64,000 nucleotides of DNA, taken from NCBI GenBank assembly GCA_027100635.1, contig JAMOOQ010000001.1:1-64000 (forward strand), in the 5' to 3' direction. Positions 34,909-51,008 of this stretch are shown here, piece by piece (position 1 is the stretch's first letter; the number at the start of each line of letters is the position of its first letter). Source of the stretch: Campylobacteraceae bacterium. GTDB lineage: Bacteria; Campylobacterota; Campylobacteria; Campylobacterales; Sulfurovaceae. Position numbers and translations under genes: made by a program. The notes beneath the pieces are model-generated. The model was not told where the DNA came from. It ran no database searches and worked only from the letters and a program-made list of their open reading frames with translations.

Positions 34909-37489
34909 ATTTCAATACAACACTTGTTTCGGTTCAATCTCCACAATCACACTCGCAGTATGAACCCAAATTAATTTCAATACAACACTTGTTTCGGTTC
35001 AATAAGAGCAACAACCATAATTCCAGCCATCTCCTCAACATTTCAATACAACACTTGTTTCGGTTCAATGTTTTGTAAATTTAAGCGAAGGAGCTGGAGT
35101 TCCATTTCAATACAACACTTGTTTCGGTTCAATTAGCTGTTATACTAAGTATGATATTCAAGGGTGTACATTTCAATACAACACTTGTTTCGGTTCAATA
35201 CTAATTTTTCTACTTTTAAAGAGAATTTTTCTAAATTTCAATACAACACTTGTTTCGGTTCAATTCGCATTCATAACTGGAGCTAGTGTCGTAGTAATAG
35301 ATTTCAATACAACACTTGTTTCGGTTCAATCATAAAATTTTGCTAGACATAAGGGACTTTCCCTTAATTTCAATACAACACTTGTTTCGGTTCAATTAAC
35401 ATTATTTCTCCTTTTAGCGTAAGTCCAAAAAAATTTCAATACAACACTTGTTTCGGTTCAATCAAAGATAAACTGTTCACTTAATTTTACTAAATCTATT
35501 TCAATACAACACTTGTTTCGGTTCAATATCTTATAAGTTAATACATTTAAATTACAGACCCTATTTCAATACAACACTTGTTTCGGTTCAATACTGCCTA
35601 TGCAATAAAAGAATTTAATGATTTGATATTTCAATACAACACTTGTTTCGGTTCAATACTTTATTGTCACTCTGTTGATATTGAAAAGTTTAGATTTCAA
35701 TACAACACTTGTTTCGGTTCAATCTAATAGTTATAGTAATTTTAATATATTGATAGAGGATTTCAATACAACACTTGTTTCGGTTCAATATTTTTAGTGA
35801 TGACGAAATGGGGCAATTTCTATAATTTCAATACAACACTTGTTTCGGTTCAATAAAGAGATTGAAGCTGAAATTCTACAAGGGTTTAGATTTCAATACA
35901 ACACTTGTTTCGGTTCAATTGGATATTCGGAAGGATTTGTAAACCGTGGAAGTATATTTCAATACAACACTTGTTTCGGTTCAATTCTGGTAATAGTAAA
36001 AAAAATAATAGCTTAAGTTAATTTCAATACAACACTTGTTTCGGTTCAATTCTCTTCATATTTAATGTCGTAATTATTATCTCTATTTCAATACAACACT
36101 TGTTTCGGTTCAATCTGTTCACGCCAACGATATTGGGATGACAACTTGATTTCAATACAACACTTGTTTCGGTTCAATCTATTAAATTCCAAATTCAGGG
36201 TTTTTAAACTAGCCATTTCAATACAACACTTGTTTCGGTTCAATTTAAAATATTTTAGTAGTGGTGGTGGATCGGTATTAATTTCAATACAACACTTGTT
36301 TCGGTTCAATTTTTGCTTCTTTACCAAATGGTACAACATTACAAAACATTTCAATACAACACTTGTTTCGGTTCAATGGTTCTGTTATGGCAGATGAATG
36401 GAACGCTGTTGAATTTCAATACAACACTTGTTTCGGTTCAATTAAGATTTTGCTAGACATAAGGGACTTTCTCCCTTAATTTCAATACAACACTTGTTTC
36501 GGTTCAATTAAAGACAATATTAAACAGGCTAGTTTAAAAACCCATTTCAATACAACACTTGTTTCGGTTCAATAAGAGGCTTGCGAAACTTTAGACCTAA
36601 ATGATTGGAATTTCAATACAACACTTGTTTCGGTTCAATTATTCAATTTCTAAAATATTCTCTAAATTTTGAATATTTCAATACAACACTTGTTTCGGTT
36701 CAATTTGGAATATTGTGGGTTATTGAAAAAATATTAGGAAATTTCAATACAACACTTGTTTCGGTTCAATAAGCTGTGTTGTATACGATTACATTAATTG
36801 ATTAATTTCAATACAACACTTGTTTCGGTTCAATACGCAACTGGATTTCTAAAAGAGGCTTGCGAAACTTATTTCAATACAACACTTGTTTCGGTTCAAT
36901 TCAAATAGATTTTTGTTTGTTCTATAAAGTAGCTCTATTTCAATACAACACTTGTTTCGGTTCAATTTGCTTAAATAGTTCAACATCCCACTCGTGTTTT
37001 TTTATTTCAATACAACACTTGTTTCGGTTCAATTATTAAGCCCCACAAGGACAATAATAAATCTTTTAAATTTCAATACAACACTTGTTTCGGTTCAATA
37101 ACTATAGAAATATTAAGAGAAAAAAACGCATGTAAATTTCAATACAACACTTGTTTCGGTTCAATAAGTTACAAAAGCTTCTATCGAGTTAGATGTTAGA
37201 TTTCAATACAACACTTGTTTCGGTTCAATTAAGTACCCAGTAAACAAGGCCAAAGCTTACGAGCATTTCAATACAACACTTGTTTCGGTTCAATTTGGAA
37301 TATTGTGGGTTATTGAAAAAATATTATCAAATTTCAATACAACACTTGTTTCGGTTCAATCTTCAACTTTTCTTTTCTCAATGTTTTTTCCATGATTTCA
37401 ATACAACACTTGTTTCGGTTCAATAAATGGTAGAATCTCATATTGGAGAAATAATCAAGATTTCAATACAACACTTGTTTCGGTTCAAT
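34909..37489 (-). CRISPR. CRISPR array 1, 40 repeats and 39 spacers
   Basis: Forty copies of a 30-bp repeat that on the forward strand begins ATTTCAATACAACACTTG and ends TTTCGGTTCAAT, without visible variation. Spacers are 34-37 bases. On the minus strand the repeat starts ATTGAACCGAAAC and ends GTATTGAAAT, giving the ATTGAAAN 3' handle typical of type I-B. This sets the transcription direction as minus, with the leader at the high-coordinate end next to cas2. Newest spacers should therefore be those near 37460. Two pairs of near-duplicate spacers and one pair of overlapping spacers lie within the array. Confidence 0.98.
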
Positions 37490-37638
37490 GAAAGGATTAT
37501 CGGCATCTTATAAAACACCTCACCTCTCTAACGCCCTAAATAGGGACTTTGGCTGATTTTTTCCAGCCATTTTAACAACTCAACAATAAATAGTCAAATA
37601 TCATCTATAAGTACCATTATATCGCAGTTTAACTTACC
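37490..37638 (-). promoter_or_regulatory. CRISPR leader of array 1
   Basis: About 149 bases between array 1 and cas2, nearly identical to the leader of array 2 (four substitutions and a one-base indel by eye). On the minus strand it holds TATAAT in GCGATATAATGG at 37616-37621, about 127 bases before the first repeat. Inverted repeats TGGCTG/CAGCCA (37550-37569) and CCCTA/TAGGG (37534-37545) are further features. These are likely transcription and adaptation signals. Confidence 0.88.
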
Positions 37639-37663
37639 TTTTCCTAAATTATAGGTTGGAAAA

Positions 37664-38970
<1,307 letters not shown>

Positions 38971-38982
38971 AATTATCTCCTT

Positions 38983-39480
38983 TTATATAAAACAGTACTC
39001 ATAATAAGCACACTTTTTACATTTTTTTTCTAGGATAGGTTTTGGTGAATATTTTTTAGCTATTAACTCTTCTATATTTTCTAAAACCTCTAAAAGCTCT
39101 TTCTCATTGACCTCATCAAGCTCAATATAATCAATCTTTTTCCCTTTTCCTCTTTTTTCTATATATTCAATTTTACCTTTTTTGATTACACCTTTTTGTT
39201 TGAGTTTATAAAGATAAAGTAAGACCTGCCATTTTACAGCTTCTCTATCACTATCAGACTTTTTAACCTCTACAAGATAATCTCGTGTAATCTTATCTAT
39301 TTTGATATTATCAATGCTAATCTCTGTCTTTTTACCTTTTTTTTCACTAATTTCATGTAAGACTTTTCCTATTCGTACATCTTCACTATTATCTTCTAGG
39401 TTTATACGATTAGCGTGTAGCCAACATTGGGTTTTACAATGAAAATAATAGTTTATTATTGTCCCTGTGATATTTTTCAT
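38983..39480 (-). CDS. cas4: CRISPR-associated exonuclease Cas4
   Basis: A RecB-like nuclease of 165 residues that trims prespacers and helps choose PAM-bearing ones. It carries Cys15 and Cys19 near the N terminus, His42 in GKVLHEI, the Glu71-Val-Lys73 motif in LVEVKKS, the QVLLYLYKL helix, and the C-terminal Fe-S cysteines Cys154, Cys157 and Cys163 (CKKCAYYEYC). It is followed by cas1 after 12 bases and overlaps the MntA-like gene by 4 bases. Confidence 0.95.
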   Translation of the reverse strand: MKNITGTIINYYFHCKTQCWLHANRINLEDNSEDVRIGKVLHEISEKKGKKTEISIDNIKIDKITRDYLVEVKKSDSDREAVKWQVLLYLYKLKQKGVIKKGKIEYIEKRGKGKKIDYIELDEVNEKELLEVLENIEELIAKKYSPKPILEKKCKKCAYYEYCFI

Positions 39481-39770
39481 AATTTTATCCCCTTATCCAT
39501 CTCTTTTTTTAGTAAATCATTTGCTAAATCATAATGTACTAAGTCTATAGGCAAATCTAAATCTCTCAAAATAAGATATTTAAAAAAACGAACCTTTGCC
39601 TTAGTAAATGCTTCTCTATTTATAGTTGAACGCACGGCTATATCAAAATCTCCACCTTTTTTAGTATCATCAATACGACTACTACCAAAAAGAATAAGCT
39701 TTGACTCACCAAAAGCCTCTGTTGAGGCTTCTATAAACTGTTTTCTAAGATAAGGAGAGAGTCGCATCAT
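39477..39770 (-). CDS. MntA-type nucleotidyltransferase antitoxin
   Basis: A minimal nucleotidyltransferase of about 97 residues. It has the full GSx10DxD motif (GSSRIDDTKKGGDFDIAV) and the helper LPIDLVHYD, as in MntA antitoxins that AMPylate the HepT toxin. The start at 39770 follows AAAGAGAT and is preferred to an upstream ATG at 39803; the second ATG at 39767 is equally possible. It overlaps both the HEPN gene (26 bases) and cas4 (4 bases), so it is fixed in the cas operon. No inactivating change is seen. Confidence 0.88.
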   Translation of the reverse strand: MMRLSPYLRKQFIEASTEAFGESKLILFGSSRIDDTKKGGDFDIAVRSTINREAFTKAKVRFFKYLILRDLDLPIDLVHYDLANDLLKKEMDKGIKL

Positions 39771-40215
39771 ATCTCTTTGCAAATGCAAATACTTTATGCA
39801 CAATCGCTTCTAATTCATCAAAACTATCTACGCAATATTTTAAATCATTAAGTGCTTCTTGAAGTTTATCAGGATAGTCATGCTCCAAATCATTTCTGAT
39901 ATTTCTAAACTCTATCCATTTATCAAGACTTACAATCTCTTCTTTTTCAATGAGGGTCAAAACTTCACTCATCTTAGTATAAGAAATCCCCGAAATATCA
40001 AGCAAACCTTTAAAAACTTTTGCTCCAAGATAATCTTGCAAAGATGAAAAGCGTTTAAGATAAGCTTCTAAAACAGCTTTACCTTCTATATTTAATATTT
40101 CAAATTCATCAATAGAAAAATCAAAATTTGAGCTATCAATATACTCATGATACTCTTTTAATGCACGATAATGTGATTGTACTTTTTTCAGTTGTTTTTG
40201 TAGTATTTGTTTCAA
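39745..40215 (-). CDS. HEPN ribonuclease toxin, HepT-like
   Basis: A helical 156-residue HEPN protein. The RNase motif is Arg107-x4-His112 in RNDLEHDY, with Tyr114 at the position that MntA modifies in known RX4HXY HepT toxins. The upstream NIEGKAVLEAYLKRFSSLQDYLGAKVF matches the family helix. HepT cleaves RNA or tRNA when not held by its antitoxin. It lies 14 bases after cas3 and overlaps the antitoxin gene. Its position between the interference and adaptation genes is unusual; an addiction or back-up role is inferred. Confidence 0.88.
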   Translation of the reverse strand: MKQILQKQLKKVQSHYRALKEYHEYIDSSNFDFSIDEFEILNIEGKAVLEAYLKRFSSLQDYLGAKVFKGLLDISGISYTKMSEVLTLIEKEEIVSLDKWIEFRNIRNDLEHDYPDKLQEALNDLKYCVDSFDELEAIVHKVFAFAKRYDATLSLS

Positions 40216-40229
40216 ATTATTTTCCTTTT

Positions 40230-42401
40230 TTATAAATATCCATTCCTATCCTCAATATTTTCAACTTCATCATTAGTTAAACCAATATCACTATGATATT
40301 TTAAAGCAATCATAGGAAAAACTCTTTTATATCCATCATATTCAAAAAAAGTTATCTTATCTTTATTTGCCATATATTTTTTCTTACTAATAGATACAAA
40401 TAGTTTTTCAGCTTCTAAATACCTTTTATTTTCTATAAATTTCATAAACTCATCTCTTAACTCAATAGGTAAAACTTCAATACCATCAAATTGAGAAAAA
40501 AACTCCTCTTCATTCTCTTCATATACATTAAATGGATATAAGTTATCTAAATATCCTCTAAACTGTTCTCGTAAATTATCCTCATTGAGTTTAAAAGGTT
40601 CATATATTTTATCTAATAGACTTTGCACAATATTTTCATTGATGACTATATCTTGAATACAGTTTAATTCCTCTAATGTATTTTCAAGAAGTGTTTTATC
40701 ATAAATAATTTTATGCACATCTTCAATTACACTTGTCACAAAACAATTAGCTTCATCACTCTGCTTTAAAACTCTTTTTTGTTCCCTATAAACTCGTCCA
40801 AATCGTTGGAGTAAAGCATCAAGTGGAGCAGGTTCGGTCACTATCAAATCATAATCAATATCTAAACTAACTTCAATAGCTTGTGTTCCAACCAATAGTT
40901 GAGGCTTGTTTTTTGACTGTACAGATTTCTCTTTTTCAGTCCTATCTCTTCCATTAAATCCACTATGAAGTAGTGTTTTATCTAAACACTCTATAGACTC
41001 ATAGATCTCTTGTGCTTTGGCAACGGTATTACATACAACTAAAACTGTTTTACCATCATCTATTTTTGACTGAATAAAACTTTTCTGTTCATCTATAGTT
41101 GAATCAAGTAGTTTTATCTTATGTCTTTGAATAGTATATATCAACTCTTGATTGGGTCTAATCTCTTTTTCTATTTTTAGAGTAATTTTGATATACTCTT
41201 GCATAAATGTTGGCATAGTAGCCGTCATAATAAATACTTTAACTTCTAGCTTATTCATAAGCCACTCTATAAAAAAGAGTATTCGCCTAAAAAGTTCTCT
41301 ATCATAGATATGAATCTCATCAAAAATTAGATAAGCCCCTGCTAATTCTGTAAAACCTTTTTCAAACCCTTTCACTCCAAAAGCCCATTTTAAAATTTGA
41401 AAAGGGGTAACTATTTTAAAAGGTTTGATAATCTTTTTGTTAATATCTATCAATTCTTTTAGGCTTTGTCCATCTTTTCTTTCATAATACTCATCTATAA
41501 AAAACTTAGCTTTTCCATGTAAAAGTCCAACCAAAGACTCATCTCCAAAACCTTTGTCTTGACTTGATACTCTTTTAGTCATTGCATTAATAGAAGCTGT
41601 AAAAGGAAGAATATAAAAAGCTCTTCCTTGTCTTATATTAAGCTGTGTTTGTAACCAACCTAAACTACTCTCTGTTTTGCCTTGTCCTGTTGGAGCAATC
41701 AACAGAGTATTACCTTTTGTTTCCCAAGAGGCTTTTTGATGATAGTATGGTTCATCTTTTGTATTGTATAAAAAACTAAAATTTTCTTGTTCAATGATAG
41801 GAATATTTTTGATACCTGCTGAAGCATTATGGTCACAGATAGAGAGTGTTGCTGATAAGAAAATATTTTGGAATTTTTCTAGTTCAGAGATTTTTTTCTT
41901 GGCTCTTTTTGAAGTCCATTTCTTAATTATTTTATTCAAATCATTAAGTTTAAACTCTTTTAATTCAATATTATGTTTTGATAAAAAATTCTCTATCCAC
42001 ACAAAATCTAAAGCTTCAAATTCTTTGTCTATCCACCTATCTTGATTATATTTTTTGTTATTATCATATTCATTCAATAACTCTTTTAATTTTTCAAAAT
42101 TTTTATGATGTGCCAAAACAGCATTTATGATTAACTCATTATCTGTATAATTTTGAGCTACAACTGCACTCAAAACTTCATGACGAAATCTATATTTTTT
42201 GCCTGTTGTCATTAAATTTTGAAAGCCTTTTGTGCTTTTACCTATATCATGAAACAAAATAGAGATTTTGAGATAGTTCCAAAACGCATCATCTCCAAAA
42301 AGTTCTTTTAATACAGGAAAAGCTATTTGAAAAGCTTTAGAGACATCCAATAAATCTTGAATATGTTCCTCTAAACTCAATCCATCAGATTTGGCTAACA
42401 T
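40230..42401 (-). CDS. cas3: CRISPR-associated helicase-nuclease Cas3 (HD fused)
   Basis: The effector of type I interference, 723 residues. The N-terminal HD nuclease has His13, His51-Asp52 (LFHDIGKSTKGF), His74 and His98-His99. The SF2 helicase has Walker A APTGQGKT (236-243), DEIH (361-364), TAT (393-395) and QRFGRVYRE. It degrades target DNA after Cascade binding. The start overlaps cas5 by 7 bases. All catalytic residues appear intact. Confidence 0.96.
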   Translation of the reverse strand: MLAKSDGLSLEEHIQDLLDVSKAFQIAFPVLKELFGDDAFWNYLKISILFHDIGKSTKGFQNLMTTGKKYRFRHEVLSAVVAQNYTDNELIINAVLAHHKNFEKLKELLNEYDNNKKYNQDRWIDKEFEALDFVWIENFLSKHNIELKEFKLNDLNKIIKKWTSKRAKKKISELEKFQNIFLSATLSICDHNASAGIKNIPIIEQENFSFLYNTKDEPYYHQKASWETKGNTLLIAPTGQGKTESSLGWLQTQLNIRQGRAFYILPFTASINAMTKRVSSQDKGFGDESLVGLLHGKAKFFIDEYYERKDGQSLKELIDINKKIIKPFKIVTPFQILKWAFGVKGFEKGFTELAGAYLIFDEIHIYDRELFRRILFFIEWLMNKLEVKVFIMTATMPTFMQEYIKITLKIEKEIRPNQELIYTIQRHKIKLLDSTIDEQKSFIQSKIDDGKTVLVVCNTVAKAQEIYESIECLDKTLLHSGFNGRDRTEKEKSVQSKNKPQLLVGTQAIEVSLDIDYDLIVTEPAPLDALLQRFGRVYREQKRVLKQSDEANCFVTSVIEDVHKIIYDKTLLENTLEELNCIQDIVINENIVQSLLDKIYEPFKLNEDNLREQFRGYLDNLYPFNVYEENEEEFFSQFDGIEVLPIELRDEFMKFIENKRYLEAEKLFVSISKKKYMANKDKITFFEYDGYKRVFPMIALKYHSDIGLTNDEVENIEDRNGYL

Positions 42402-43117
42402 AGACTTCTCAATAGTACAGAACTGTGTAACTCCTCATCAAAATAGGCATCTGCTGATACTTCATTTTCAAATTTATTAAACTTCCAGTTTTTCATATCA
42501 AATTGTTCTATCTTATTTCTTGGCTCATATAAAAAACCACCTAATCCATCATTGATTAAAAACGGTTGAACACCTCTTGGCTCTCTTACGATATTACTAT
42601 TATCAAAATATTTAGGCATTGCATAAATTTCACCTGAAGATTTAAACTCATTAAAAGGCACTATCGTACCATTTAAAACAGCTTTATCACTCTTGATTAC
42701 TTCAATCTCTTTCACCTCAACAACTCTTGCTAAATCTCCACTTCGCCCCATAAGAAGTTGAAAGATAGGAGATTTAAAAGCATTAGCTATCTTCTCATTT
42801 TCAAAATAGAGTGTTAAATAACAATCAAAAAGTATCTCTCTTTTAAAAGTTGGGTCTTGAATTACCCTTTTATTATTTACAGAATTTCCCTTTTTTTCAA
42901 ACTTATAAATCGTTTCTAAATCTACATAAGAAGATTGGTATCTAAAAATATAAGAAAATTTAAAATCAACCAGTTTATCATCTCCTGAGGCAGAAGCAAC
43001 CATTCCTGCTATAGTTGTATAGGAAATCGCCTTGATACTAAGTTGATTTGAACTTATAAAATTTGGATACCTAAAACTAGCTGTTTGAGCTGTGATAAGT
43101 ACACGATATAGCTTCAT
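42395..43117 (-). CDS. cas5: Cascade subunit Cas5 (type I-B)
   Basis: A RAMP-fold protein of 240 residues with the Cas5 start MKLYRVLITAQTASFRYPNF, the QLSIKAISYTTIAGMVASASGDD segment, and LMGRSGDLARV, which matches the LGR(S/R)E block. Cas5 binds the 5' handle of the crRNA. It follows cas7 by 1 base and overlaps cas3. Its relatedness looks closest to the Cas5t (TNEAP) branch, which fits the neighbouring Cst1- and Cst2-like genes. Confidence 0.93.
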   Translation of the reverse strand: MKLYRVLITAQTASFRYPNFISSNQLSIKAISYTTIAGMVASASGDDKLVDFKFSYIFRYQSSYVDLETIYKFEKKGNSVNNKRVIQDPTFKREILFDCYLTLYFENEKIANAFKSPIFQLLMGRSGDLARVVEVKEIEVIKSDKAVLNGTIVPFNEFKSSGEIYAMPKYFDNSNIVREPRGVQPFLINDGLGGFLYEPRNKIEQFDMKNWKFNKFENEVSADAYFDEELHSSVLLRSLC

Positions 43118-43118
43118 T

Positions 43119-44243
43119 TTAGACTATAACCGTATCTAAAGTTTGAATAAATTCATCAATCGTTTTATTGATACTTTCTGTATGAATTTCTATACCATCT
43201 ATTTCACTTTTTAAAATATTCAAACTTACATCATCCATAAAACCACTTGCTTTACCAATATAAACATCACTTCTAAGATACTCTTTATTATCTAGAATCG
43301 CCTCTTTTAAAGCTTCAATAGACAAAGTAGCTCTTCCATTCTCTTCTACAGCAATATTATCAAAAATATTATTACCACCTTTAAATACAGCCAATATAAT
43401 AAAATCAGGTTTTACACTCACATAATTAGTACTTCTTTTAGCTCCACCTGCAATTGTTTTAAGTGCTATTATCGTATCTTTTGCTCTTTGCATTCTTATA
43501 CTATTTTCTAATCTTGCTCTTTGAACATTTGGATTAATTAAATCATCTACCTCTGTACCAGTTTCTAAAACTTTGTTATAAGTAATATCTGTAACATTTT
43601 TAAATCCCGAACGATTTATTTTTGTAAATGTTCCTACTTGGTCTAAATCAAGAGAAAACATACCTTTTAAAACTGTAGAATAAGATTGCTTTTCATAAGG
43701 TACTGCATCTCCATCTTGTCTAGCCATAGTTGAAAATTCATTCAAAACTTTTTTATCAATTGAAGTGACAGATGTTAAAATAGAGTTTTTAAGTGGACTA
43801 ATTCTTGTAACCGTTACATCTTCCATTTTAGGATTATCTCTGTTTTTACCTCTTCCTCCAATTAAAACAGTATTACCATCTTCGTCTTTGACCTCATCTT
43901 TACTAGCTCTCATATATCCAAAGAGATCATCATCAGCATAGTTTAAAGGGTTAGCATCTGTAAAAGCTATTTTTTTATCTCTTGTAATTGGGCTTAAACT
44001 CCAACCATTTAATCCTAGTGATTCTCTCCACCAGTATCTCCATGCTTGACCTGCTACAACAGCATACATCCTTCCATTTTTAAATACTTTTTTAACAGCA
44101 GATGTATTATCCATACCTTGTGTATTAGTGGCATCACTACCCCAATTGTTTAAACTTGCACCATCAACATCAATCAAAATTGAACTATGTACAAAATAGT
44201 TTTTAACCTCATCATCTTTAATTATCTTTTCAAAATTACTCAT
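43119..44243 (-). CDS. cas7: Cascade backbone subunit Cas7 (Cst2/DevR-like)
   Basis: A protein of about 374 residues forming the crRNA-covering backbone. Recognisable parts are VHSSILIDVDGASLNNWGSD, AGQAWRYWWRESL, PLKNSILTSVTS and SYSTVLKGMFSLDLDQVGTFTK, all typical of Cst2/DevR Cas7. The ATG at 44243 has AAGGAG six bases before it and is preferred to the ATG at 44258. It overlaps the cas8 stop by 8 bases. Confidence 0.93.
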   Translation of the reverse strand: MSNFEKIIKDDEVKNYFVHSSILIDVDGASLNNWGSDATNTQGMDNTSAVKKVFKNGRMYAVVAGQAWRYWWRESLGLNGWSLSPITRDKKIAFTDANPLNYADDDLFGYMRASKDEVKDEDGNTVLIGGRGKNRDNPKMEDVTVTRISPLKNSILTSVTSIDKKVLNEFSTMARQDGDAVPYEKQSYSTVLKGMFSLDLDQVGTFTKINRSGFKNVTDITYNKVLETGTEVDDLINPNVQRARLENSIRMQRAKDTIIALKTIAGGAKRSTNYVSVKPDFIILAVFKGGNNIFDNIAVEENGRATLSIEALKEAILDNKEYLRSDVYIGKASGFMDDVSLNILKSEIDGIEIHTESINKTIDEFIQTLDTVIV

Positions 44244-45630
44244 CTTCATCTCCTTCATTTAAATTTTCTATTGTTTCTTCTTCTAAATTCATTTTTTCAT
44301 ATAAGGCAATCAATAAAATATCTTTTGTCTCATACCAACTTTCACCACTTGGTAAAATATATAAAACCATCTCATCTACAGTAAATAGTGGCTTTTCTGA
44401 TTTAGACAAAAACTTTCTCATCAAAATTCTCAAATTCTCTCTAAACTCTGTTTGTGATTTTGTCATCTCTATAGGACGAACAATCTTTTTATAAAATGTT
44501 TTATCATCTTCATTGAAAAGTTGTAAATTATCAGCAACTTTTTTGATTATATTTAGTCTCTCTTCTCTCATACCTTTTATCTCCTTTAAGTATATTGTAG
44601 TTAATTTCCAACTACAAAGATTTTTTTTGAAATAGTATAATATTGATTTCCCTTGAATAAAGTTAATAATCAAGGGATTAAAATATTTTATTGTAGATTT
44701 ATAATACTTATTCTCAATAACATCTTCTTGAAATTTAATCGTTTTAGCTTTGCCATCAATACTCTCTTTTCGTGTCCTAAATTTTCCACTATTATCTTTT
44801 GAAGAGTATTTAAAAATAAGATAATTCCACTCATCTTTTTGTTTTGTTGGAAGCTCATTTTTAAAAAACTTTGGAGCAACATTATGTAAAAATTTCATCT
44901 GATTTTCAGAAATATGAACTACATTTATCTCACTACCTTTATCTACATTAGAAATCAAATAAAATGTTATATCTCCAAATAATCCTTCTTCTTGAAGCTC
45001 CTCAATCATATTATAAATAAAATTTTCAAAGATATTAATTTTAGAATCTACAAGAGAATCTATATTTTTTACAATATTTGCATTAAACTCATCACTATTT
45101 TCTTCACTCCAAAACTTATTTATCTCTTCATTATTACTAATCATAAAGCCCATACGACCCGTTGTCTTTTGCATATTAATAGGTGCAAAAAAGAGTGAAG
45201 TCATACAAACTTTACACATTAAAAACTTATTAGAAAAATTTGATGTAAAATTTGCATTGCTATTTCCTGTGGTTAAAGGGAAAATAGTTTTACTCACGCT
45301 ACACAAATTATCTTTTTTACCACAAGAGAGACAATATCCATCAAAAGATTCTTTTATCAATCCATTATATAATTCCAAAGCTTGTTTTAATCGTTCATTT
45401 AAATTTTTACCAGTTGAGTTATGCGTAAATTTTGAATTTGAAGAAAACACTTGTCCAAGTCGTCCACTTGTTTTAAAAGTATAGATATTAAAAAGTTTTT
45501 TTACTTCTTCATTTAGCTCATCTAAACTGCTAAACTTATTTTTCTTAGAAAATTCAATCAAGCCAAGCCGTCCAATCTCCACCATAGGGTCGCCCACTTG
45601 TTTTGAAAAGTCTAATATCTCTTTTTCCAT
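44236..45630 (-). CDS. cas8: Cascade large subunit Cas8 (Cst1-like, CxxC..CxxC)
   Basis: A 464-residue protein with a zinc-ribbon pair Cys100-x2-Cys103 and Cys139-x2-Cys142, the hallmark of the Cst1/Cas8 CXXC-CXXC type. The ends are GRLGLIEFSK and LLIALYEKMNL. Cas8 recognises the PAM and recruits Cas3. In many I-B systems an internal start in the 3' part gives a small subunit (Cas11); several in-frame Met codons occur there, but I cannot assign one. The ATG lies inside the end of the preceding gene. Confidence 0.9.
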   Translation of the reverse strand: MEKEILDFSKQVGDPMVEIGRLGLIEFSKKNKFSSLDELNEEVKKLFNIYTFKTSGRLGQVFSSNSKFTHNSTGKNLNERLKQALELYNGLIKESFDGYCLSCGKKDNLCSVSKTIFPLTTGNSNANFTSNFSNKFLMCKVCMTSLFFAPINMQKTTGRMGFMISNNEEINKFWSEENSDEFNANIVKNIDSLVDSKINIFENFIYNMIEELQEEGLFGDITFYLISNVDKGSEINVVHISENQMKFLHNVAPKFFKNELPTKQKDEWNYLIFKYSSKDNSGKFRTRKESIDGKAKTIKFQEDVIENKYYKSTIKYFNPLIINFIQGKSILYYFKKNLCSWKLTTIYLKEIKGMREERLNIIKKVADNLQLFNEDDKTFYKKIVRPIEMTKSQTEFRENLRILMRKFLSKSEKPLFTVDEMVLYILPSGESWYETKDILLIALYEKMNLEEETIENLNEGDEDE

Positions 45631-46127
45631 TTTTCATACCTCACATTATAAACTTTATCTTCGTTATAACATTCCAAAGAGTTTGGAAATGTCCAAATCA
45701 TATATTTTTTACTTAATTTTTTAAAATCTATCTCCATTTTATCCAAAATATCTATCAAAAACAATACTTGTTTATCCATTCCATTAAAGAGAGATAAATT
45801 CATTGAACCCTCATCTTCTATATCTATTATCGCATTAAATGGATTTCTTTTTTTGGTTGGAAATAGATTATTATAGATATAATTTAGTAGATAAATATTG
45901 GCATTCTCACCGTAAAAAAATATATCTTTAGCTGATAGTTTTAGTTTAACAGTTTTCTTATTCAAAAATTTTCTCACATACTCTTTGAAAATCTTATCTA
46001 AAAAGTCATCATCACTAGGGTCAATATATATCCCTTTTTGTTTTAATACAATTGTTGTAATATCGTATTTTGATAAAAAATTATCTTCATTTTTTGTTTT
46101 CCAACTAGCCCATTTAACTTTTATCAT
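45612..46127 (-). CDS. unknown gene of the cas operon, upstream of cas8
   Basis: A 171-residue protein I do not recognise. It is basic at both ends with a central FFYGENANIYLLNYIYNNLFPTK and IIDIEDEGSMNLSLFNGMD, suggesting alternating strands and helices. It starts after AAAGGAGTAAAT and its last 19 bases overlap cas8. It is too small for a RAMP and lacks zinc cysteines. It could be a small Cascade subunit, an anti-toxin-like factor, or an accessory protein; nothing decides this. Confidence 0.7.
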   Translation of the reverse strand: MIKVKWASWKTKNEDNFLSKYDITTIVLKQKGIYIDPSDDDFLDKIFKEYVRKFLNKKTVKLKLSAKDIFFYGENANIYLLNYIYNNLFPTKKRNPFNAIIDIEDEGSMNLSLFNGMDKQVLFLIDILDKMEIDFKKLSKKYMIWTFPNSLECYNEDKVYNVRYEKWKKRY

Positions 46128-46179: not shown

Positions 46180-46824
46180 CTAATTGCTTTCATCTATTTC
46201 CCTTTTTACAACTTGTAAGTTTTTATAGATTTGTTCTAAATCCTCTCTCTCTGTAGCATCATATTTTTTAGATATATGATACTTATATTTTTTATCTTCT
46301 ATCTTCTCTAAAAAAACAAATGTCCATACATATCCCATAATATAAGCACCTTTTATATCTTTAGAATTATTAATATATGTAGCAACTATCATCTCTGCTA
46401 AAAGTTGCTCTTCAGGGAAAGATGCAGAAGCTTGTTTAAATTCTTGAATGAAAAAATATGGTTTTACTGGGCTTGAATATCCTTTAGCTACCACATAATC
46501 ACATCTACCATTAAATGTAATATCTTCAATTTTATATTTTAAAGGTGTCTTATAAAAATCTCTAATATGTTTATCTTCTAATTCAAAATCAATTCTATTT
46601 AAAATAGGAGCAATAAATTTAGAAATTAATTCTAATTCCGTATAATTGACAATTTTATTGATATGTCTTTTAATCAAAGCCTCTAAAAATATCTTATCCT
46701 CTTTTAAAATTTTATCTTCTGCAAAAAACCATTTATCAAATATTTGTCTATCATAATTTTTCTCTATATCAAATATTTCTTCTAGTTTATTAAGTGTAAT
46801 AGTTGAGTACTTTAAAGTTCTCAT
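46180..46824 (-). CDS. PD-(D/E)XK-like nuclease embedded in the cas operon
   Basis: A 214-residue protein. The core is FNGRCDYVVAKGYSS, a strand, then YFFIQEFKQASASFPEEQLLAEM, which gives the Asp...Glu-x-Lys pattern plus the following helix with a Gln-Leu pair expected of restriction-like nucleases. Before it is a helical region; after it comes GAYIMGYVWTFVFLEK, the last core strands. It overlaps the cas6 stop by 4 bases (ATGA) and is followed by a 52-base gap. It is not a standard type I-B gene. A host type I restriction R-like fragment is less likely because it is intact and in-operon. Confidence 0.65.
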   Translation of the reverse strand: MRTLKYSTITLNKLEEIFDIEKNYDRQIFDKWFFAEDKILKEDKIFLEALIKRHINKIVNYTELELISKFIAPILNRIDFELEDKHIRDFYKTPLKYKIEDITFNGRCDYVVAKGYSSPVKPYFFIQEFKQASASFPEEQLLAEMIVATYINNSKDIKGAYIMGYVWTFVFLEKIEDKKYKYHISKKYDATEREDLEQIYKNLQVVKREIDESN

Positions 46825-47555
46825 ACTTTTATCCCCCTACCCAAACAAAATCCTCCACCAAAGCTATTTTTTTCTCCAAGTCCACAAGCCAAAGCAATAA
46901 ATGCCAGTTTTTGAGAATTTTCATCTTCATTTGGAACAATCCTAAACTTATTGCCATAAAATTTAAAGGATGTTACTTTTTTAGTTTGTTTATCTGTTTT
47001 ACTTGTTTTTATAGTTTGTAATCTATTGTTTTTAAGTTCAAAGAGTTGTATAAAGTTTTGGGATGATTTTATATCCTCATCATAAAAGTCTTGATATTTT
47101 TTTTCTAGGTTATTTTGTAGTTGTTTGTATAGGAGCATCAAATCATCCTCTTTTGTCCAAAATCTTCTATTTGCTAAAGATATTATAACAGGAGTAGCTG
47201 AATAAAGTTGAGTTATAAAGAATTGTTTGATGGTTTTTTTGTTAGTTTGTACTATAAGTAGATTTGGATTATTTATATTTTCTCTAAGAGTTTTAGATAG
47301 AGTATCTATTAATTCTTCATTTAATGAGCGAATATTAAAAGAATATGTATTGCCTTGTTTATATGTCTTAGTTTTTTCTATTGGATAAAAAATATCAAAA
47401 GTATAATGTTTAAATTTATTTTTGTTATGTAACTCTTTTAGAGTGCTAGTTTGAGCCATTGAGTAGCTTATATATTTACTAATAGTTTCAAAACTATCTT
47501 GGAAGTTAATATCTTTTTTGAGGTATGCCGTGCATTTTAGTTCATAATATTTCAT
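46821..47555 (-). CDS. cas6: CRISPR RNA endoribonuclease Cas6
   Basis: The pre-crRNA processing RAMP, 244 residues. The first ferredoxin-like domain starts MKYYELKCTAYLKKDINF. The C terminus has the glycine-rich loop GLGEKNSFGGGFCLGRG that binds the repeat. The likely general base is a histidine in KELHNKNKFKHYTF. It cuts the transcribed repeats to leave the ATTGAAAT 5' handle. It is the first gene of the operon, with TATAAT about 21 bases upstream on the minus strand. Confidence 0.93.
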   Translation of the reverse strand: MKYYELKCTAYLKKDINFQDSFETISKYISYSMAQTSTLKELHNKNKFKHYTFDIFYPIEKTKTYKQGNTYSFNIRSLNEELIDTLSKTLRENINNPNLLIVQTNKKTIKQFFITQLYSATPVIISLANRRFWTKEDDLMLLYKQLQNNLEKKYQDFYDEDIKSSQNFIQLFELKNNRLQTIKTSKTDKQTKKVTSFKFYGNKFRIVPNEDENSQKLAFIALACGLGEKNSFGGGFCLGRGIKV

Positions 47556-47662: not shown

Positions 47663-50600
47663 ATTTTAATATAACACTTATTTTGGTTCAATTAGAGGTA
47701 TTAAATTTGTATTGGAATGGGTTAAAGTATTTCAATACAACACTTGTTTCGGTTCAATCATATTTTTGAGTAATGAAGATGTACCGTTACCCCTATTTCA
47801 ATACAACACTTGTTTCGGTTCAATACTCTAAAGGCTCTGCTTCTAAAAAAACTTTACCTTCATTTCAATACAACACTTGTTTCGGTTCAATTGTAGTTTA
47901 TAAAGAAAAAAAGAGAAAACAAAGAAATTTCAATACAACACTTGTTTCGGTTCAATAAAATAAAAAATTACTAAATATTTATTAAAAATACTATTTCAAT
48001 ACAACACTTGTTTCGGTTCAATCTAAAGAGTTTGGAAAAATAATTAAGCCTTTAGTATTTCAATACAACACTTGTTTCGGTTCAATTGTACACGGAACAT
48101 AAGAGGCAGATATAAAGGGTTATTTCAATACAACACTTGTTTCGGTTCAATTTTTAATATATTTTAATACCAAAAGAATCTCCTCCTATTTCAATACAAC
48201 ACTTGTTTCGGTTCAATTACCACCTAAGAGAGAATGGGTAGACCCAATCAAATTTCAATACAACACTTGTTTCGGTTCAATGTTAGGGCAAGGACAAAAA
48301 GGGGGAATTGGGGCTTATTTCAATACAACACTTGTTTCGGTTCAATGTTAAAGTGTAATTACTTGCCATTTTTATCTCCTTTATTTCAATACAACACTTG
48401 TTTCGGTTCAATATTTTTCCAATTTCTGTTAAAAAAATACATCCAAAATTTCAATACAACACTTGTTTCGGTTCAATAGAGATATAGAAAATGAGATTTT
48501 ACAAGGATTTAGATTTCAATACAACACTTGTTTCGGTTCAATCTTTTTAGGGTATAAAAGGTTTAAGAGAAGTGAATAATTTCAATACAACACTTGTTTC
48601 GGTTCAATGCTTAAATAGTTCAACATCCCACTCGTGTTTTTTTATTTCAATACAACACTTGTTTCGGTTCAATAATGGTTTAAATAAATTTAAAAAAATT
48701 AATTGGGAATTTCAATACAACACTTGTTTCGGTTCAATTTACCCAAAGAATCTCAAGAGAAGAGGAGGTGGACGAATTTCAATACAACACTTGTTTCGGT
48801 TCAATCAGTTGGACTATGTATTCAAAAAGATGTCGGATATTATTTCAATACAACACTTGTTTCGGTTCAATATGATTGCCCCACTATTCATTTTGCACCC
48901 TGCACCCATTTCAATACAACACTTGTTTCGGTTCAATATATATAGAAGATGCAAATGTTAAAACGCCAACAATATTTCAATACAACACTTGTTTCGGTTC
49001 AATACTGTCCACAATTGGAGATAGAAAATTCTGGAAAATTTCAATACAACACTTGTTTCGGTTCAATTCTTCAACTGTTGCTAAAGCAGGTAACGTAAGT
49101 AAATTTCAATACAACACTTGTTTCGGTTCAATAAAGTGGATATGATGAAAAATCATTTTTAAATATATTTCAATACAACACTTGTTTCGGTTCAATCTCT
49201 TTCCATCTCTTCTTTGCCTTATATCTCCCAAATTTCAATACAACACTTGTTTCGGTTCAATTCTTTCCATCTCTTCTTTGCCTTATATCTCCCAGATTTC
49301 AATACAACACTTGTTTCGGTTCAATAAGTGATAGTTTTGAAGGAGTTTCTACTTATCAGTTATTTCAATACAACACTTGTTTCGGTTCAATAATGTCATT
49401 TCTTCAAATGTGATTGAAAATGACTAATTTCAATACAACACTTGTTTCGGTTCAATTCTATAACGTTGAGGTGGAATTTCGAAGAAGTCACCATTTCAAT
49501 ACAACACTTGTTTCGGTTCAATGAACCAAATTTAATTAAAATGCTATCTAAAATTTGATTTCAATACAACACTTGTTTCGGTTCAATCTTTGTCTATCCT
49601 CAACCGAGATTTGGTTAAATTGAGATTTCAATACAACACTTGTTTCGGTTCAATCTAGTGATATATCAACAAGTTATTTAAAAAGAGTATTTCAATACAA
49701 CACTTGTTTCGGTTCAATTTTAGGCGAATTTGAAGATTCTTTTATTGAGGATTATTTCAATACAACACTTGTTTCGGTTCAATAACTATAGATTTTTTAG
49801 ATATTCAAAACAAAAATGGATTTCAATACAACACTTGTTTCGGTTCAATGGTATTAATGCAATCAATTATGATAGTGCGACGATATTTCAATACAACACT
49901 TGTTTCGGTTCAATATTAATAATCCCAAAAATGCATAAGGTAAAGTCTCCATTTCAATACAACACTTGTTTCGGTTCAATTTTGAGGCTCTTAAAACAAA
50001 TATAAAAGGTTGTCTATTTCAATACAACACTTGTTTCGGTTCAATAGCCTCCTCTTGGGGGTTTGAAAGAAAAAAAATGAAATTTCAATACAACACTTGT
50101 TTCGGTTCAATCTATACATCAGAGTACTTTACTGTACAAAATCAAGAATTTCAATACAACACTTGTTTCGGTTCAATCCCATTGTTTTAGATTGTGTTTA
50201 TTTTGCTTAATTATTTCAATACAACACTTGTTTCGGTTCAATCTTTTGCACATTTGCTAACGAACCCACAAATACAAATTTCAATACAACACTTGTTTCG
50301 GTTCAATTAGTAGTATTAAAAGTCCACCAATTGGTGTAGAGGTATTTCAATACAACACTTGTTTCGGTTCAATGGCAGATAAAGTTGAAAAATTGGGTGG
50401 AAATGTTGAATTTCAATACAACACTTGTTTCGGTTCAATCAATCAAGATTTAAGCAACTGGAATGTTTCTAGTGATTTCAATACAACACTTGTTTCGGTT
50501 CAATGAAATTTGGAGCAGATAGAGTATCTATCACCAATGGATTTCAATACAACACTTGTTTCGGTTCAATTTCAAGAATTAGCTGAGCGATTCCTAAAAG

Positions 50601-50765
50601 AGGGATTTCAATACAACACTTGTTTCGGTTCAATGCAAAAGTAAAGATTACTACATATTCTCTAGGTTAATTTCAATACAACACTTGTTTCGGTTCAATC
50701 ATCTTTACCAGTTCTTAAGTTTTTTAAATATTTTAATTTCAATACAACACTTGTTTCGGTTCAAT
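47663..50765 (-). CRISPR. CRISPR array 2, 47 perfect repeats plus one degenerate terminal repeat
   Basis: The same 30-bp repeat as array 1: 47 intact copies and a degenerate one at 47663-47692 with four changes, all transitions. The degenerate copy marks the old end, so the leader is again at the high-coordinate side and transcription is on the minus strand. There are 47 spacers of about 34-37 bases. One spacer is shared with array 1 (48609-48643), two adjacent spacers are near-duplicates (49197 and 49262), and one resembles a diverged spacer in array 1 (48478). Confidence 0.98.
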
Positions 50766-50913
50766 GAAAGGATTATCGGCATCTTATAAAATACCTCACC
50801 TCTCTAACGCCCTAAATAGGGACTTTGGCTGATTTTTTCCAGCCATTTAATAACTCAACAATAAATAGTCAAATATCATCTATAAGTGCCATTATATCGC
50901 ACTTTAACTTACT
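50766..50913 (-). promoter_or_regulatory. CRISPR leader of array 2
   Basis: A near copy of the array 1 leader, with the minus-strand TATAAT at 50891-50896 and the same TGGCTG/CAGCCA and CCCTA/TAGGG inverted repeats. Homology fades after about 50913, close to the initiator tRNA gene at 51009. One Cas1-Cas2 could thus add spacers to both arrays. Confidence 0.88.
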
Positions 50914-51008
50914 TTTATATAAATCGGAGGTTGGAAAAATATAAATTTACTATTTTATCATTTCTTTTTGGTAAAAAAAATATCTTAATTTTTTATGAAA
51001 TTTGATTT

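Follow-up and report, generated by a model that had tools for sequence, protein, structure and literature searches.

Probable repeated, independent capture of one invader site by a two-array type I-B CRISPR-Cas system in a Campylobacteraceae bacterium

Background

Two spacers in one CRISPR array of a Campylobacteraceae bacterium are identical except for two adjacent bases. The question is whether the host captured the same invader site twice and, if so, whether the second capture was an answer to a phage that had escaped the first. The stretch of DNA analysed here, hereafter called the window, comprises 64,000 nucleotides at the start of contig JAMOOQ010000001.1 (assembly GCA_027100635.1). An initial annotation, made from the sequence of the window, had proposed that the host re-armed itself against a seed escape mutant. 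In this work, we examine the two spacers in the context of their arrays and of the arrays of related genomes.

Methods

Spacers are numbered from the leader, separately for each array (A1.x and A2.x). For the survey of relatives, we collected arrays located near Cas1b-like genes. In total, 112 genomes or named loci were fetched; one locus (L020) was removed because another (L120) contains it, and those that gave no array do not contribute, so that the sample consists of 89 genomes including the window, with 109 arrays and 4,397 spacers. The survey takes in a few dozen Cas1 genes that score under the curated Cas1b cut-off and are accompanied by other repeat types. Arrays were identified by a custom script, which misses arrays of fewer than four repeats and very irregular ones.

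The type I-B locus and its two arrays

The locus is a type I-B CRISPR-Cas system, in which the cas genes lie on the minus strand between two arrays with a common 30-nt repeat (Table 1). Judging from profile matches, the type I-B gene set is complete here: it contains Cas8b, Cas7b (Cst2), Cas5b, Cas6 and Cas3, together with the adaptation genes cas1b, cas2 and cas4. For Cas8b, the Pfam score is merely at the cut-off (21.0 bits), and the match to the PADLOC model is clear (E 1.4e-16). The nearest relatives of the Cas1 protein are found in Campylobacteraceae or Campylobacterota MAGs. All of the 87 repeats counted in the two arrays are letter-perfect.

The operon also contains genes outside this set. 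The region between cas4 and cas3 (39477-40215) encodes a PF01909 nucleotidyltransferase-domain protein and, in an overlapping gene, a protein with an RNDLEH motif, which has no Pfam match and which we take to be HEPN-like. This gene couple resembles a toxin-antitoxin pair embedded in the cas operon; at E 1e-3, neither gene had relatives among the remaining fetched loci, which in many cases do not span that part of the operon. Between cas8b and cas6 there are a 171-aa protein without a family match (45612-46127) and a PD-(D/E)XK-like Cas-associated protein identified by PADLOC (46180-46824).

Table 1. Positions of the cas genes, arrays, leaders and related spacers in the window
Feature	Position	Strand	Remarks
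cas2	37664-37972	-	TIGR01573 above cut-off
cas1b	37966-38970	-	TIGR03641 above cut-off
cas4	38983..39480	-	TIGR00372
cas3 (HD plus helicase)	40230..42401	-	TIGR01587 and TIGR01596
cas5b	42395-43117	-	profile matches
cas7b/Cst2	43119-44258	-	profile matches
cas8b	44236-45630	-	Pfam and PADLOC models
cas6	46821..47555	-	TIGR01877
CRISPR array A1	34909..37489	-	40 identical 30-nt repeats, 39 spacers; crRNA from minus strand
Leader of A1	37490..37663	-	first repeat to cas2; repeat-proximal part near-identical to A2 leader (alignment)
CRISPR array A2	47729..50765	-	47 identical repeats, 46 spacers; same repeat as A1
Degenerate distal repeat of A2	47663-47692	-	4 substitutions
Leader of A2	50766..50960	-	alignment with A1 leader
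Spacer A1.3, newer allele	37295..37330	-	36 nt; crRNA sense starts TTGATAATATT
Spacer A1.12, older allele	36705..36740	-	36 nt; crRNA sense starts TTCCTAATATT
Spacer A1.8	36967..37003	-	37 nt; site of A2.33, 0 differences over 35 nt
Spacer A2.33	48609..48643	-	35 nt; site of A1.8
Spacer A2.24	49197-49231	-	35 nt; adjoins A2.23 (both in 49197..49295), same site
Spacer A2.23	49262-49295	-	34 nt; differs from A2.24 at position 1 (C/T) and in length
Spacer A1.16	36443..36478	-	site of A1.33; 2-nt indel near positions 6-7, one substitution near position 33
Spacer A1.33	35331..35366	-	partner of A1.16
Spacer A1.25	35855..35889	-	site homologous to A2.35; 8 differences in 35, scattered
Spacer A2.35	48478..48512	-	partner of A1.25
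Spacer A1.14	36574..36609	-	18-nt same-strand overlap with A1.10 (36835-36870); yields 5' flank CTA for A1.10
Spacer A1.15	36509..36543	-	17-nt opposite-strand overlap with A1.20 (36179-36214); 5' flanks TCA (A1.15) and ACA (A1.20)

Orientation of the arrays and the PAM side

Any statement about a seed depends on the direction in which the arrays are read. The two arrays have near-identical leaders, each at the right-hand end, and the repeat ends, on the minus strand, with TATTGAAAT, which we take to be a type I-B style 5' tag. In addition, the spacers that share a site have a fixed 5' end, and their 3' ends vary by 1-2 nt (37 nt in A1.8 and 35 nt in A2.33; 34 nt in A2.23 and 35 nt in A2.24). 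The same anchoring is seen in the wider set, in which 131 related same-strand spacer pairs lie at offset 0 versus 8 at all other tested offsets.

A putative PAM can be read without protospacers wherever the 5' end of one spacer falls within another spacer, since the latter then supplies the upstream bases. This procedure gave 21 5' flanks from six genomes, with T at position -3 in 17, C at -2 in 15 and A at -1 in 18. The full TCA is present in 12 of the 21, of which L120 alone contributes 11 flanks (8 with TCA), leaving 4 of 10 outside it; the three flanks from the window itself are TCA, ACA and CTA. The 3' flanks, used as a control, contain no such motif, although T is frequent at +1 (14 of 22). 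Table 1 of PMC8482600 lists TCA as an I-B PAM for Campylobacter repeat clusters, which is the same motif on the same side; that PAM was derived from mapped protospacers, whereas our motif comes from overlapping spacers. A functional I-B PAM, TTTCA, is described for Clostridium pasteurianum in the cited part of PMC4860712. With no protospacer mapped, overlapping spacers yielded a PAM-like motif that agrees with the published one.

Taken together, the shared leaders, the fixed 5' ends and the TCA-like 5' motif indicate that spacer positions 3-4 lie on the PAM side. On the same three grounds a wrong orientation of the array, which the initial annotation had named as a flaw that would undo its reading, was rejected.

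The twin spacers A1.3 and A1.12

The two spacers have the coordinates and lengths that the initial annotation had given, and the alignment reproduces its count of 34 equal bases in 36 as well as its placement of the two differences, GG versus TC, at positions 3-4 from the leader-side end. On the plus strand A1.12 ends in TTAGGAA and A1.3 in TTATCAA, so that the crRNA-sense spacers begin with TTCC and TTGA, respectively. Within the spacer, the differences are thus confined to the seed. When all 85 spacers were compared with each other on both strands (7,140 spacer-spacer comparisons), this pair obtained an alignment score of 32, the maximum over 20 shuffled sets being 15.0; seven pairs exceeded that maximum. 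Two reading frames are open in both versions, and in one of them both changes fall into a single codon (Gly versus Ser).

A1.3 is third and A1.12 twelfth from the leader, with eight spacers between them. Because A1.3, the version with TC on the plus strand, is nearer the leader, it is the newer of the two, and the order of acquisition claimed at the outset is borne out together with the leader side. The neighbours of A1.3 are unrelated to those of A1.12 (scores of 4.0 and 4.0). These unrelated neighbours and the perfect repeats make it unlikely that an array block was copied and later mutated, and block duplication was rejected as the origin of the pair. Given a correct draft assembly, the common 5' end, the 34 equal bases and the unrelated neighbours amount to two independent acquisitions at one protospacer.

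That positions 3-4 belong to the 5' seed of the crRNA, as the initial annotation had it, agrees with binding data for the Thermotoga maritima I-B system: in the cited part of PMC13199841, mismatches at positions 1-5 or 7 each leave little or no binding. By analogy with these data, the older guide should fail on the newer allele, whatever the history of that allele.

Other re-used sites in the window

Besides the twin spacers, four more sites are re-used in the same arrays (Table 1). The eight differences between A1.25 and A2.35 leave an open frame intact (KEIEAEILQGF versus RDIENEILQGF), which marks the two targets as diverged homologous genes. The difference at position 1 between A2.23 and A2.24 is silent in every open frame examined. 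A1.16 and A1.33 both contain the inverted repeat TAAGGGA...TCCCTTA with loops of 5 and 3 nt, respectively; with a loop that differs in length, their target is probably a hairpin.

Searches for protospacers

The initial annotation had suggested searching phage and metagenome sequences for both versions of the twin protospacer; neither was found. No convincing protospacer was found in the source genome itself (a pattern search, then searches with 39 and with all 85 of the spacers), in five genomes of the genus and 175 of the family (all 85 spacers), or in 397 genomes of the phylum, where 78 of the 85 were used, A2.5, A2.15, A2.25, A2.32, A2.36, A2.43 and A2.44 being left out on account of low complexity or earlier weak matches. 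Against the INPHARED phages, the best E value for the 39 A1 spacers was 6, and the 46 A2 spacers had no match at E 1; a plasmid search with the 39 A1 spacers gave no convincing protospacer (best E 0.4). In IMG/VR, each of six related sites had 0 matches to exact or back-translated patterns, the latter of which presuppose a frame and could overlook the source; for A1.3/A1.12, the patterns were a 28-base core and the protein in one of the two open frames.

Two candidates were rejected as sources. A2.5 (50440-50474) has weak matches with 5 mismatches at three places in two family genomes (G168 and G173); its NWNVS motif suggests a BspA/DUF285-like sequence. The sole match in the phylum, in L133, is gapped and lies inside an ORF.

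Probable capture from two alleles of one site

The evidence probably means that a single PAM-anchored site was captured twice, independently, by this two-array type I-B system, from two alleles of one invader. An identity far above that of shuffled spacers, unrelated neighbours, perfect repeats, the shared leaders, the PAM-like 5' flanks, the conserved frame of A1.25/A2.35 and the anchoring at the same start all argue for it, and re-use of sites is general in this system and its relatives. Against it are the failure of the searches to find a protospacer of either allele, the presence of TCA in only one of the three flanks of the window, the origin of 11 of the 21 flanks in L120, and the draft state of the genome, whose array may have been assembled from mixed strains. 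In such a course of events, the system would have taken A1.12 from an older allele and later captured the same site anew, as A1.3, from a second one. From published I-B biochemistry, poor binding of the newer allele is expected for the crRNA of the older spacer, in which case the newer spacer would restore immunity. A plausible route is primed or interference-driven capture, to which the older guide, matching in part, would have contributed.

Standing variation or seed escape

The remaining problem is where the second allele came from. Somewhat better than even, in our judgement, is the chance that it was already circulating: the site would be favoured by the adaptation machinery, or hit again by chance, and the donors would be related phages that differed there beforehand. 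The other re-used sites fit such a course, as A1.8/A2.33 was re-captured unchanged over 35 nt, A1.25/A2.35 with eight changes in a conserved frame, and A2.23/A2.24 with a change that is silent in the frames examined. Nor does re-use need escape to occur at an appreciable rate: a simulation on random sequence, which serves as a yardstick only, predicts about 2.5 same-site pairs when 85 spacers sample the TCA sites (approximately 1,435) of a 40-kb target evenly, and the window has 5. In the genomes as a whole we counted 21 overlap events and, tandem and block copies aside, 52 identical pairs, although with even sampling overlaps should be 1.4 times as frequent as same-site pairs; this shortage of overlaps indicates that some sites are favoured. 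The point that standing variation explains less readily is the position of the two differences, since only about 4% of two-difference pairs (probability 0.044) would have both in positions 1-8 of 36.

The same figure speaks for seed escape, according to which a phage with a change at positions 3-4 was selected by the older spacer and then gave the host a new spacer from its altered site. We regard this as a real possibility, but one with rather less than an even chance. The other two near-identical variant pairs of the window also differ near the 5' end, at position 1 and by the indel near positions 6-7, and there is a close precedent in Legionella (see below). However, a single step of escape needs fewer than two adjacent changes, and identical sites are re-captured as well.

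The survey allows the position of the differences to be examined more widely. The 89 genomes contain 127 same-start families: 46 are tandem or block duplicates, 38 are variant, 25 are identical and isolated, and 18 are identical with different lengths. For the seed count we used the closest pair of each family in the 88 other genomes, excluding the window and L020 and removing block duplicates; the position counts leave out three gapped pairs, A1.16/A1.33 among them. Pairs with at most two differences (17 pairs, 23 mismatches) show no concentration in the seed, since positions 1-8 hold 6 mismatches versus 5.2 expected (P 0.43, generous like all P values of this test because mismatches within one pair are not independent) and 5 of the 17 pairs have any mismatch there versus 4.9 expected. 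With up to five differences (26 pairs, 58 mismatches), 19 mismatches fall in positions 1-8 and 8 in the last eight positions, 13.3 being expected in each case (generous P 0.05 for the former), and 12 of the 26 pairs have any mismatch in 1-8 versus 10.8 expected (P 0.37). With up to ten differences, the count is 37 of 113 versus 25.8 (P 0.006), in pairs too diverged to be single escapes. The mismatches thus lean weakly to the seed, which favours escape to that extent and could reflect it in a minority of the pairs. A repeat of the seed test, set beforehand for six further genomes, had no power: only two of them had an array and, even with extensions around eight known arrays, no pair with five or fewer differences was added.

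Two loci of the survey deserve separate mention. In L120, a Sulfurospirillum MAG on the same contig as L020, arrays of 217 and 27 repeats lie within 20 kb and contain many same-site, overlapping and opposite-strand spacers, which makes them a good place for studying re-capture. In L132, a same-start pair differs mostly at steps of three (positions 1, 4, 7, 10, 13, 19, 20, 21 and 30), a spacing that synonymous divergence of homologous phage genes would produce.

Of the re-arming proposal, then, the orientation, the order of acquisition and the location in the seed hold. What does not follow is that selection for escape favoured the second allele, given the unchanged and the eight-difference re-captures in the window and the lack of seed concentration in the 88 other genomes. 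Since same-site re-capture is common among the relatives, usually without a change in the seed, the seed difference in this one pair is suggestive of escape and re-arming, but neither diagnostic nor proof.

Finally, it is very improbable that the pair arose by duplication of an array unit and later mutation, or as an assembly artefact: the many duplicates in the wider set and the state of the genome (a draft of 57 contigs, 77% complete, which could contain a mixed-strain array) lend this some support, but the neighbours, the 87 perfect repeats and the eight intervening spacers speak against it.

Relation to known cases

The pair A1.3/A1.12 adds a further example to a phenomenon already described for Legionella and Sulfolobus. 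In the type I-C system of Legionella pneumophila Toronto-2005, as described in the cited part of PMC5071653, pairs of spacers target overlapping regions of the element LME-1, the newer matching perfectly and the older being impaired in PAM or seed, for which the authors put forward escape with subsequent primed acquisition. As in our case, one strain holds an older and a newer spacer for target regions that overlap; unlike in our case, the targeted element has been identified and is matched perfectly by the newer one, whereas here both spacers start at the same base. The cited part of PMC6452263, on Sulfolobus islandicus, also tests mismatch positions against random placement and reports that mismatches are in excess in the five bases closest to the PAM for SIRVs, but not for SSVs; that study compares spacer with protospacer in a far larger sample, whereas we compare spacer with spacer. 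For the type I-F system of Pectobacterium, the cited part of PMC5059440 describes interference-driven and primed acquisition, i.e., a route from a fully or partly matching older spacer to a new capture from the same invader. This work is experimental and concerns a subtype other than the I-B system considered here.

Conclusion

The two-array system of this bacterium thus seems to have returned to one site of an invader that existed in two alleles. It may be, though we think it less likely than not, that the array is an ordered record of an arms race, with the pre-escape guide at rank 12 and the post-escape guide at rank 3, that the variant pairs differing at position 1 and near positions 6-7 are further rounds, and that some same-site variant pairs of type I-B systems are fossil escapes readable without a phage genome. 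If escape is the true explanation, arrays alone would record both sides of the coevolution between host and phage, even for phages that are unknown.
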